20,268 nucleotides of DNA from a virus: positions 1-20,268 of IMG/VR virus record IMGVR_UViG_3300020478_000090. One strand, 5' to 3'. Shown here piece by piece: positions 15,007 to 16,786 of this stretch. Within the stretch, counting starts at the first letter, position 1. The number at the start of each line of letters is the position of its first letter. The notes below the pieces were generated by a model. It was given only the letters and a program-made list of their open reading frames with translations. It did not search any database and was not told the origin of the DNA. Position numbers and translations under genes: made by a program.

Positions 15007-15162
15007 TGTTAGTTAAAGAAATGTATTGTTTACTTTCTCACGTGAAATTTTTTGATCAGTTTTTTTTGTGGTCTATCCCACCGTCTAGACGGCAAAAGGT
15101 ATCCTCGTAAGGGCTAATGCCAATGAAGGAGAGGTCCGACTCTGAGGTGCCTCTCCTCCTAT
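15007..15162 (-). promoter_or_regulatory. Structured, A-rich 5' leader of the capsid gene
   Basis: 156 nt without a gene. Reading on the minus strand it holds an AGGAGG that is not followed by a usable ATG, a hairpin at 15125-15159, the 12-bp palindrome CCGTCTAGACGG at 15081-15092, runs of eight and six A separated by CTGATC, the palindrome TCACGTGA, and AACAATACA just upstream of the capsid ATG. I see no convincing host -35/-10 pair. Whether a phage RNA-polymerase promoter lies here cannot be decided without comparing other intergenic regions of the same genome. Confidence 0.5.
15125..15159 (-). promoter_or_regulatory. Ten-base-pair RNA hairpin between the 26-residue ORF and the capsid gene
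   Basis: On the minus strand GGAGGAGAGG pairs with CCTCTCCTTC (nine Watson-Crick pairs and one G-U) around a 15-nt loop. No T-run follows, so it is not an intrinsic terminator. It buries the only AGGAGG of the leader. Possible roles are an RNase III processing site or an mRNA stabiliser for the capsid message, as T7 has processing sites between late genes; that is inference. Confidence 0.6.
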
Positions 15163-15243
15163 CTACTTTCGTTTAGTAGACCAAGTCATTTCCATACCAA
15201 ATCCTAGTAAGAATACTAGGAAGAGTATGTACAAAAGTTCCAT
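15163..15243 (-). CDS. 26-residue membrane microprotein
   Basis: A 26-codon ORF whose ATG directly follows the stop of the beta-barrel-like gene (TAGATG, no gap). The protein starts MELLYILFLVFLLGFGME: a single hydrophobic segment of about 15 residues (3-17). A short polar tail ends in TKRK. It is a probable single-pass inner-membrane peptide. I do not recognise a family. The tight junction with the upstream gene and the hydrophobic-then-basic layout support it being real. The AGGAGG 4 nt after its stop belongs to the capsid leader hairpin. A small holin or spanin-like partner of the secreted upstream protein is conceivable but not shown. Confidence 0.6.
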   Translation of the reverse strand: MELLYILFLVFLLGFGMEMTWSTKRK

Positions 15244-15603
15244 CTAGAAGGCCCACTTAAGACCAGCTTTGGTTCCGTAGTTGTTGTTGTCGTCATCAGT
15301 TGTGATGAAACTAATTTCTCCATAAACTGACACAGCTTCGGTTGCCGCAAAGGAACCGCCTACTTTACCAGATAGCTCAGTATTAGCATCCTCTCCATCA
15401 ACAGAGACAATAGCTGGACCACCTTGTAGGTAGTAACTAGCTGCTCCTGCAGACCCTTCGTAACCTACGTGTAGGTCAGTGACTGATCCACCGTAGTCTG
15501 ATCCATTCCATCCACTGTTGATTTCTGTGTTGACATATGGGCCAGCCATTGCAGGTGTCGCAGAGAGGGCAGACAGTGTGGCAAGTGCAATAAATGATTT
15601 CAT
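15244..15603 (-). CDS. Small secreted outer-membrane beta-barrel-like protein
   Basis: A 119-residue protein. Residues 1-20 are a textbook signal peptide: MKS, hydrophobic FIALATLSALSATP, then the AMA cleavage site before GPYV. The mature 99 residues are a series of amphipathic beta strands with alternating polar and apolar residues and Gly turns (LHVGYEG, YYLQGGPAIVSV, VSVYGEISFI). It ends YGTKAGLKWAF, the aromatic C-terminal pattern recognised by the BAM machinery. Only about six strands fit, fewer than the eight of Lom/Ail-type barrels. The ATG at 15603 is preferred over 15672, because the longer form puts 23 Lys/Asn-rich residues before the signal peptide and overlaps the 16-residue ORF. 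There is no Shine-Dalgarno site; AACAATACA stands 15 nt before the ATG. Phage-encoded proteins of this kind can alter the host surface, for example in superinfection exclusion. The role here is unknown. Confidence 0.78.
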   Translation of the reverse strand: MKSFIALATLSALSATPAMAGPYVNTEINSGWNGSDYGGSVTDLHVGYEGSAGAASYYLQGGPAIVSVDGEDANTELSGKVGGSFAATEAVSVYGEISFITTDDDNNNYGTKAGLKWAF

Positions 15604-15634: not shown

Positions 15635-15685
15635 TTACTTTTTCCTCGTGTACTTAACGCCACGATAGACATAAGTGACGGTCAT
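15635..15685 (-). CDS. 16-residue basic microprotein with YRGVKY motif
   Basis: The ORF encodes MTVTYVYRGVKYTRKK and stops. A good Shine-Dalgarno site (AGAGGAAAAACT, then ATG) precedes it, one of the few clear ones in the window. The xTYxYRGVKY core resembles the start of DUF4278 proteins of cyanobacteria and cyanophages, as I recall that family. Here nearly nothing follows the core, so it would be a minimal version. It lies between the 22-residue microprotein and the beta-barrel-like gene, directly downstream of a strong hairpin whose last base abuts the Shine-Dalgarno site. Function is unknown. Confidence 0.6.
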   Translation of the reverse strand: MTVTYVYRGVKYTRKK

Positions 15686-15697
15686 AGTTTTTCCTCT

Positions 15698-15731
15698 ATG
15701 ATGTGATCCCCGTTCCCTGATCACACGTCAT
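15698..15731 (-). promoter_or_regulatory. RNA hairpin abutting the Shine-Dalgarno site of the 16-residue ORF
   Basis: On the minus strand ATGA-CG-TGTGATC, a 10-nt loop AGGGAACGGG, then GATCACA-TCAT. This gives a perfect 7-bp inner stem and a 4-bp outer stem separated by a two-base CG bulge. The next bases are the AGAGG ribosome site. No T-run follows, so it is not a terminator. It could set mRNA stability or processing, or control access to the ribosome site. Confidence 0.7.
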
Positions 15732-15759
15732 GCGTCAGCCTAAGCTGATGAACGGACGC
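15732..15759 (-). promoter_or_regulatory. Second hairpin between the 22- and 16-residue ORFs
   Basis: On the minus strand GCGT ... CAGC TTAG GCTG ACGC: an inner 4- to 5-bp stem with a TTAG loop and an outer GCGT/ACGC stem, with an unpaired CCGTTCAT bulge on one side. It immediately precedes the longer hairpin and starts just behind the stop of the 22-residue ORF. It is weaker than its neighbour, and its biological meaning is uncertain. Confidence 0.45.
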
Positions 15760-15761
15760 CA

Positions 15762-15830
15762 TTATTTTTTAGGGGGACGACCCTTCTTTGTTCCGTAAGT
15801 TCCTTTTCCTTTGGGCATAATTTTCACCAT
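15762..15830 (-). CDS. Lys/Gly-rich microprotein MPKGKG type (18 or 22 residues)
   Basis: From the ATG at 15818 the product is MPKGKGTYGTKKGRPPKK. From an in-frame ATG at 15830 it gains MVKI in front. I recognise this pattern (MPKGKGTYG..GRPPKK) from tiny hypothetical proteins that recur in cyanophage genomes and that gene callers often miss. Nine of the 18 residues are Lys, Arg or Gly in a flexible context. A nucleic-acid or capsid-interior binding role is plausible but unproven. The 15830 start overlaps the end of the upstream 42-residue ORF by 7 nt, which favours coupling. No Shine-Dalgarno site is visible for either start. The stop lies 3 nt before the hairpin pair. Confidence 0.75.
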   Translation of the reverse strand: MVKIMPKGKGTYGTKKGRPPKK

Positions 15831-15952
15831 AACATATCATAGGCAAACCCATCAGTCATAGATACCGTCTGCAAAGTTTGCATGATACCTATTAAAACTG
15901 ATAGGAAGCCAGCTAGCATCAGGCCTATACCCAATGCTCTTAAGTTTTCCAT
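15824..15952 (-). CDS. 42-residue single-pass membrane microprotein
   Basis: The ORF starts MENLRALGIGLMLAGFLSVL and continues IGIMQTLQTVS to a polar end MTDGFAYDMLW. Residues about 7-25 form one transmembrane helix with small residues (GxGLMLAGF). Its ATG comes one base after the stop of the 23-residue ORF (TGACATG), and its end overlaps the next ORF. It is therefore the middle link of a coupled chain that starts with the scaffold gene. I do not recognise a family. It is not a high-light-inducible protein, as the chlorophyll-binding ExxNGRxAMxGF motif is absent. A holin-like or membrane-docking role is speculation. Confidence 0.65.
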   Translation of the reverse strand: MENLRALGIGLMLAGFLSVLIGIMQTLQTVSMTDGFAYDMLW

Positions 15953-15953
15953 G

Positions 15954-16025
15954 TCAATAAGCTAATAGAGAGAGGTGGATACCTAAGCATGTGAACATAC
16001 ATAGGTGTAATAACCTTCCAATCAT
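15954..16025 (-). CDS. 23-residue hydrophobic microprotein
   Basis: A 23-codon ORF that starts 2 nt after the scaffold stop (TAACAATG) and ends one base before the next ATG. It begins MIGRLLHLCMFTCLG and ends HLSLLAY: nearly all hydrophobic, with one Arg, two Cys and two His. It would span or lie in a membrane. No Shine-Dalgarno site is visible, so translation would depend on ribosomes finishing the scaffold gene. No family is recognised. It is short enough to be chance. The exact fit between two neighbouring reading frames, with no unused bases, is the main support. Confidence 0.45.
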   Translation of the reverse strand: MIGRLLHLCMFTCLGIHLSLLAY

Positions 16026-16027
16026 TG

Positions 16028-16786
16028 TTAGAATTTTACATCAGAACGTTCGAGTTTGTCTGCTACCTCCTTTCGGTATGCAGGATCCCTTTCGTATCTA
16101 GGGTCATTCATAGCTTCAATCACTTGAGCTTGACTCTTGAACTTACCGCCTTCATTGGACGCAGCTTTACCTGTAAGCATTCTACCTTCTGTTCCTGACT
16201 CATCGTCATAACGGTACTTCATAGCTTGTACTGCAAAGAAGCAGGAAAGTGGATCACCACGTTCCATGACTGTATCATACATGTCAATCTCTTCCTTGTT
16301 CAAGGAATTCTGAGCCCAACCCATCATAGATTCGTAATCCTTTTCACCGCCAGCAATCTCCTTTAGTTGTGTGACTTGCTGATCTGTGATAGTATCTTGA
16401 TTGTTGTTAGCTCTATACTCAAGGTGCATCTGAGCTAAAGCTTTTGGATCCATCTTAGATAGTTCTTCAATGGTAGATTCCTGAAGGTTTTCAGCTTTAG
16501 CTTGATCCCAAAGACGTTCTAGTATATCTGAAGAGTCAGGCTCTTCATCTTTAGATTCATCAGTAGCTTCTACCTCTGGAGTTTCTTCCCCATCTTTTCC
16601 TAGCTTACTTTGTAATTCAATGTAAGCTTTCTCTAACTCTTCTGCATCTTTAAACTTACCAGCTAGTAGTTCCGCCTGATCAGACTCTAACTTCTCACCA
16701 ACCGCTAAGGAGTCCTGCTCTTCTGCTGTAAGCTCACCAACTACTTCAGTTTGTGGTGTGTTATCAATTGTTAATGTTTCTGCCAT
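16028..16786 (-). CDS. Capsid assembly scaffolding protein (T7 gp9-like)
   Basis: A 252-residue acidic, mostly helical protein (T7 gp9 is about 307) directly between portal and the capsid block. It directs prohead assembly around the portal and leaves the shell before DNA packaging is complete. Seen: GKFKDAEELEKAYIELQSKLG near residues 44-64, in the place typical of this family; a very acidic stretch at about 68-88; and the C-terminal basic segment DPRYERDPAYRKEVADKLERS. That segment matches the helix-turn-helix that binds the inner capsid surface in scaffold proteins. The ATG at 16786 follows the portal stop after 6 nt. Its end is coupled to the 23-residue ORF. The assignment by order plus motifs is firm. 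Confidence 0.9.
   Translation of the reverse strand: MAETLTIDNTPQTEVVGELTAEEQDSLAVGEKLESDQAELLAGKFKDAEELEKAYIELQSKLGKDGEETPEVEATDESKDEEPDSSDILERLWDQAKAENLQESTIEELSKMDPKALAQMHLEYRANNNQDTITDQQVTQLKEIAGGEKDYESMMGWAQNSLNKEEIDMYDTVMERGDPLSCFFAVQAMKYRYDDESGTEGRMLTGKAASNEGGKFKSQAQVIEAMNDPRYERDPAYRKEVADKLERSDVKF

Follow-up and report, generated by a model that had tools for sequence, protein, structure and literature searches.

Three microprotein genes that follow the scaffold gene in a T7-like marine cyanopodovirus, probably translated by coupling to its stop codon

Small phage holins and single-gene lysis proteins are tiny membrane proteins with a single helix, and AT-hook DNA-binding peptides of the HMGA type are basic, with a GRP core and flanking lysines. 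In experiments with E. coli and Haloferax, translation reinitiation was possible at stop-to-start distances of the kind described below and was nearly abolished at about 20 nt (PMC10666635). A glutamine-II element of Prochlorococcus is reported to activate expression upon glutamine binding, and host versions precede DUF4278 genes (review, PMC6316151). Glutamine riboswitches have also been reported in T4-like cyanophages and other marine myophages.

The window, which is the whole stretch of DNA that we analyzed, is a viral record of 20,268 bases carrying the late genes of a T7-like marine cyanopodovirus on the minus strand. Its major capsid protein shares up to 75% identity with the counterparts in Prochlorococcus and Synechococcus podoviruses, and the region that aligns to its scaffold gene is annotated as capsid assembly or head assembly in cultured cyanopodoviruses. 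Read along the minus strand, the interval from the scaffold stop (16028) to the capsid start (15006) begins with ORFs of 23, 42, and 18 codons, in that order; a glutamine-II riboswitch comes next, then an ORF of 16 codons, the Phage_OMP gene (119 codons), an ORF of 26 codons, and, last, a structured RNA leader that belongs to the capsid gene. The features are as follows.

16028..16786, minus strand: scaffold (capsid assembly) gene, 252 aa, with relatives in 76 IMG/VR loci
15954..16025, minus strand: micro-ORF 1, 23 aa, MIGRLLHLCMFTCLGIHLSLLAY, hydrophobic, conserved in 15 IMG/VR loci
15824..15952, minus strand: micro-ORF 2, 42 aa, one predicted transmembrane helix (residues 6-24) and an acidic tail, in 19 IMG/VR loci
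15819..15830, minus strand: in-frame upstream extension MVKI, which gives a 22-aa version of micro-ORF 3 and a 7-nt overlap, out of frame with MPKG in 8 relatives
15762..15818, minus strand: micro-ORF 3 with its corrected start, 18 aa, MPKGKGTYGTKKGRPPKK, net charge +7, AT-hook-like GRPPKK, in at least 120 IMG/VR stretches
15701..15757, minus strand: glutamine-II riboswitch aptamer, RF01704, 48.5 bits versus a gathering score of 33, E 3.2e-9
15635..15685, minus strand: downstream peptide of the riboswitch, 16 aa, MTVTYVYRGVKYTRKK, conserved in relatives
15244..15603, minus strand: Phage_OMP beta-barrel protein, 119 aa, PF24653, E 1.1e-46, phrog_417
15163..15243, minus strand: hydrophobic micro-ORF, 26 aa, MELLYILFLVFLLGFGMEMTWSTKRK, starting directly behind the OMP stop, conserved in relatives
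15068..15159, minus strand: candidate structured RNA leader of the major capsid gene, with 86 to 91% DNA identity to several cultured cyanopodoviruses

Our reading, to which we assign a probability of about 0.72, is that three genuine microprotein genes form a cassette docked next to the scaffold stop in this T7-like cyanopodovirus, with coupled translation, an exchangeable cargo slot, functions of the kinds proposed below, and a riboswitch downstream.

Coding and translation of the three microgenes

The initial annotation had placed three tiny ORFs of 23, 42, and 22 codons behind the scaffold stop, and all three are present on the minus strand, with the junctions that it quoted. The scaffold ORF ends in TAA, followed by CA and the ATG of the 23-codon ORF (TAACAATG), so that micro-ORF 1 starts 2 nt past the scaffold stop. 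The 23-codon ORF ends in TGA, followed by C and the ATG of the 42-codon ORF (TGACATG), a start 1 nt past the stop of micro-ORF 1. The 42-codon ORF (15824-15952) ends in ATGGTGA, and the ATG of the 22-codon ORF (15762-15830) lies inside this sequence, overlapping the stop by 7 nt. These last boundaries are not conserved. In eight relatives that have both genes (L096, L097, L099 to L103, and L105), the overlap start, ATGG(TAA), does not share the reading frame of the Lys/Gly peptide; the internal ATG (MPKGKG...), in contrast, is conserved in relatives, at 5 nt (window) or 6 nt (most relatives) past the 42-mer stop. Because the overlap ATG is out of frame in these eight, the true start of the third gene is very probably the internal ATG at 15818, which gives a product of 18 residues; the MVKI extension (15819..15830) is probably not used as a start, and we have replaced the 22-aa version with the 18-aa one.

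The relatives that entered the pN/pS sets were fetched through a neighboring gene and never through the ORF under test; a first dN/dS estimate for the three genes, with sequences picked by protein pattern, was dropped. On these short alignments (54 to 126 nt), and with neutral simulations run on an approximate tree, pN/pS was 0.215 for the 23-mer (11 distinct sequences), 0.309 for the same gene after the divergent L112 homologue was added, 0.110 for the 42-mer (7 sequences), and 0.092 for the 18-mer (21 sequences). Values as low were reached in 0 of 1,000 neutral simulations in each of the first three cases and in 0 of 500 for the 18-mer. The annotated frame is the only stop-free forward frame in all three sets, and each ORF keeps its frame, start, and stop in relatives. 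Judged by these comparisons, the 23-, 42-, and 18-codon ORFs are conserved genes that evolve as protein-coding sequences. The initial annotation had named two observations that would speak against the ORFs, namely, relatives losing the start or stop codons and substitutions free of codon-position bias, and the ORFs withstood both; the dN/dS-type test that it proposed showed purifying selection on all three. Its suggestion that they fall below gene-caller limits yet are real genes is thus supported by in-frame recurrence in relatives and by purifying selection.

When the three peptides were used as tblastn queries on 50,697 annotated phage records, no match was obtained, and nothing was found there with a longer relative of the 18-mer either. 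This blank reflects a limit of very short or low-complexity queries, because the same or a near-identical peptide of 18 to 19 residues can be read directly in P-SSP2, P-SSP10, 9515-10a, and NATL2A-133. Among these cultured phages, P-SSP2 has the same 18 residues starting 2 nt past the scaffold stop, and in 9515-10a, P-SSP10, and NATL2A-133 the peptide is 19 residues long and its ORF overlaps the scaffold stop (TAATG); cultured S-SBP1 has a 27-residue form overlapping the hli stop. All of them are unannotated. Searches of Pfam, PHROG, and PDB sequences with the micro-ORFs gave no match, and the functional statements made below are therefore drawn from composition and neighbors.

The spacing of the genes points to coupled translation in several ways. 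First, among 36 distinct ORFs that come first past the scaffold stop, the distance was −1 nt in 16 and +2 nt in 14 (30/36). These ORFs are mutually unrelated and include the 23-mer, hli, psbA, the Lys/Gly peptide, and proteins of RlpA-like DPBB and DUF6321-like type, among others; the scaffold stop codon is the docking point for whatever gene comes next. (A distance of −14 in L007 came from a spurious ORF, and the 23-mer of that locus sits at +2.) Second, the 42-mer starts 0 to 1 nt past whatever precedes it in nearly all loci. Third, each start inside the cassette is 0 to 6 nt from the preceding stop. These stop-to-start distances fall within the range of about −8 to +10 nt taken from PMC10666635 and are kept in relatives. 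Reinitiation after scaffold translation, which the initial annotation had favored, is likely to be the mode by which the micro-ORFs are translated, because relatives retain the −1/+2 spacing even where the gene behind the scaffold differs.

The lack of Shine-Dalgarno sites, also noted in the initial annotation, holds for the first two ORFs and fails for the 18-mer, whose start has GGTGA, a sequence not kept in relatives. We rejected a missing site as proof of reinitiation and regard it as weak evidence, because the scaffold, portal, and capsid starts in the window likewise have none. In the coupled scheme, ribosomes finishing the abundant scaffold protein would reinitiate at the first micro-ORF without need of a Shine-Dalgarno sequence and would then be passed down the chain, gene to gene, by termination-reinitiation. 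The fixed docking distance suggests a way to swap accessory genes in without a ribosome-binding site of their own.

A variable slot and possible roles of its microproteins

The gene that precedes the 42-mer varies: it is the 23-mer in some loci, the RlpA-like gene in five, and a protein of 133 to 141 residues in another five. Several relatives' loci lack the 18-mer, and each of the three genes occurs without the others. Because the predecessors vary and the 18-mer can be missing, the three genes do not make up one obligatory module; they are a mixed set of small genes that share a variable slot. The slot acts as a cargo position with occupants (the 23-mer, the RlpA-like gene, hli, psbA, the Lys/Gly peptide, and others) exchanged between phages. 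In L009/L113, L012, L015, L097, L099, and L102, the position immediately after the scaffold stop is taken by an RlpA-like DPBB gene (98 aa) in place of the 23-mer.

The 23-mer occurs in a narrow group only, and many phages with the same slot do not have it. Its hydrophobicity is moderate (KD19 1.74, and 0.88 in the divergent L112 homologue), consistent with a small membrane-associated peptide. The 42-mer has a KD19 maximum of 2.34 over residues 6 to 24 and glycines at 8, 15, and 22, and we infer that it is a single-pass accessory protein of the inner or thylakoid membrane. A host origin was considered and rejected, the sole cellular match of interest (Roseovarius, L245) being a different small ORF; that match is nonsignificant at that collection's size, with the scaling estimated by hand. 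A separate record filed under a Dehalococcoidia MAG (L244; 6,627 bases) is equal in length to the viral contig of L004, has a 100% identical 42-mer, and is probably a misbinned virus contig.

The strongest alternative is a lysis module, with the 42-mer as a very small holin or single-gene-lysis-like membrane protein acting with a peptidoglycan-active partner and with the 23-mer assisting. The 42-mer has the predicted transmembrane helix (at least one) required of a holin, its single helix is strongly hydrophobic, and its three glycines were counted in favor as well. An adjoining endolysin, also expected of a holin, has a possible counterpart in five relatives (L097, L099, L102, L104, and L113), where the 42-mer lies directly 3′ of an RlpA-like DPBB gene (PF03330, E 6.5e-22), and in S-B28, a cultured relative, this interval contains a gene with the annotation lytic transglycosylase. 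The RlpA-like neighbor in the five relatives makes lysis by the 42-mer a serious rival. However, the window and most relatives have no RlpA-like partner beside the 42-mer, which elsewhere comes behind unrelated proteins, and the slot sits within morphogenesis genes. In addition, the phage RlpA-like sequences have Thr at the residue that we take to be the catalytic Glu of RlpA. On balance, the module as a whole seems unlikely.

More doubtful still is the idea that the hydrophobic peptides are small subunits of a photosystem or another membrane complex, comparable to the hli and psbA products encoded in this interval in cultured relatives. The peptides are tiny and single-helix, as small photosystem subunits are, but a PDB sequence search with the 23-, 42-, and 26-mers found no credible match to photosystem or cytochrome b6f subunits; the only PsaO line had an E of 5.6 with 8 residues covered.

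The 18-mer is the widest-spread part of the chain. A DNA pattern search of IMG/VR matched at least 120 stretches, and chance matches are negligible because the pattern fixes about 28 bases. Genes related to the window's proteins or to psbA, hli, or RlpA accompany 32 of the 126 18-mer loci examined and are missing at the other 94, around which terminase large subunit is the commonest named PHROG family and head, portal, and tail proteins rank next (76 neighboring ORFs). The 18-mer is probably useful to virions, because it is spread over many marine phages near head and packaging genes. Its AT-hook-like GRPPKK tail may bind nucleic acid and act around head filling or packaging. The AT-hook likeness (the GRP core) was judged by eye; no Pfam family, AT-hook models included, matched up to an E of 5, no PDB sequence matched, and the 18-mer is not filed as an AT-hook member. 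S-RIP2 (L002:1405-1707) encodes a fusion of the GTYG start motif with a DUF6321 protein (PF19846), and the peptide thus also occurs as the N terminus of larger proteins. A bolder and tentative proposal is that several unrelated kinds of marine phage encode, within their head and packaging regions, a tiny unannotated GKGTYG...GRPPKK protein that binds DNA and serves in the virion or in packaging. In cyanopodoviruses, this factor would be made together with two membrane microproteins from a reinitiation dock at the scaffold stop, in proportion to the scaffold, and the chain would feed into a glutamine riboswitch.

The riboswitch and the genes leading to the capsid

The RF01704 aptamer (15701-15757), absent from the initial annotation, starts 4 nt past the micro-ORF 3 stop. 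Of 20 related loci scanned, 19 had a match above the gathering score, as did 9 of another 10 cyanopodovirus loci (the tenth match was a tRNA). The riboswitch is also present in 11 of 13 annotated cyanopodovirus records (10 cultured phages and the uncultured S28-C3). By glutamine level, it would probably gate the next genes, those for the 16-mer, the outer-membrane-like protein, and the 26-mer, and its place in the same operon would tie late phage expression to host nitrogen status.

The chain of small genes extends past the first three ORFs, with the 16-residue peptide behind the riboswitch and the hydrophobic 26-residue peptide, both before the capsid gene. When longer relatives of the 16-mer were compared with the end of DUF4278, the best score was 21.6 bits against a Pfam gathering score of 25.3, which is below the cutoff. 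The 26-mer (KD19 1.92) shows mostly synonymous change, with a pooled dN/dS of about 0.12 in a set chosen by protein pattern. The leader that follows is noncoding, roughly 90 nt long, and kept in several cultured cyanopodoviruses and many contigs. Two-sided changes occur at 14 of its 25 predicted pairs (68 cells versus 21 in shuffles; 0/500). With no family match in an Rfam search of 15068-15159, the leader is a candidate for a new structured RNA element in the capsid mRNA.

A conserved ORF of 32 to 45 codons (MLLLVAAFIEGVHVTKHDYYD...) occurs in 15 related loci (L005, L006, L008, L012, L096, L097, L099, L104 to L109, L111, and L007). Its last 8 to 9 codons lie inside the aptamer and its stop is at the CGCATGA of the aptamer; before the aptamer, its pN/pS is 0.19, and loop-length changes in the aptamer keep its frame. 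The window does not have this ORF. Translation and riboswitch folding may interact, because a conserved ORF runs into the aptamer in these loci. One could go further and regard the micro-ORFs as translation devices that keep ribosomes moving to the riboswitch and alter its folding, with the peptides secondary. Such a role is improbable. The 18-mer stop 4 nt before the aptamer and the frame-keeping MLLLVAAFIEGVHVTKHDYYD ORF in 15 related loci are in line with it, but the overlapping ORF is absent from the window, and all three peptides are strongly conserved in amino acid sequence while synonymous sites change freely, which shows that the peptides themselves are selected. Last, that the ORFs arose by chance within an AT-rich spacer, as their very short length and lack of a family match might suggest, is contradicted already by the comparative data (frame, start, stop, and amino acid conservation across many loci, with a constraint reached in 0 of 500 to 1,000 neutral simulations) and can be dismissed.

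In some of the most abundant phages of the ocean, then, the scaffold-to-capsid interval, although well studied, holds conserved genes of 16 to 45 codons that are absent from annotations, including those of cultured model phages. A literature search of a partial collection found nothing on these microgenes, which is weak evidence of novelty.

Comparison with known systems

The closest genomic parallel is the hli-psbA slot of P-SSP7, where photosynthesis genes occupy the same position, the scaffold-capsid interval of cyanopodoviruses, and hli overlaps the scaffold stop by 1 nt. The slot of the window differs in that it holds three microproteins and a Phage_OMP gene and neither hli nor psbA. In its translation, the cassette resembles known termination-reinitiation systems (PMC6728339, PMC10666635), with stop-to-start distances of −1 to +6 nt, which experiments have found to be efficient. 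It differs from them in being a chain of three microgenes, in keeping the −1/+2 distance though the docked gene changes, and in that the coupling is deduced from sequence. The riboswitch is like other members of the glutamine-II (downstream-peptide) family RF01704 in having an aptamer above the gathering score followed by a short YRGxxY peptide ORF, whereas its position, in the middle of a phage morphogenesis operon and directly behind a microgene chain, sets it apart. The likeness to small holins and single-gene lysis proteins lies in a tiny, single-helix 42-mer that stands beside a peptidoglycan-domain gene in some relatives; however, no sequence relation to those proteins was found, and the neighbors of the 42-mer are variable. 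Finally, the 18-mer shares with AT-hook peptides of the HMGA type a basic character and a GRP core with flanking Lys, whereas the GRPPKK form and the N-terminal GKGTYG part are peculiar to it.
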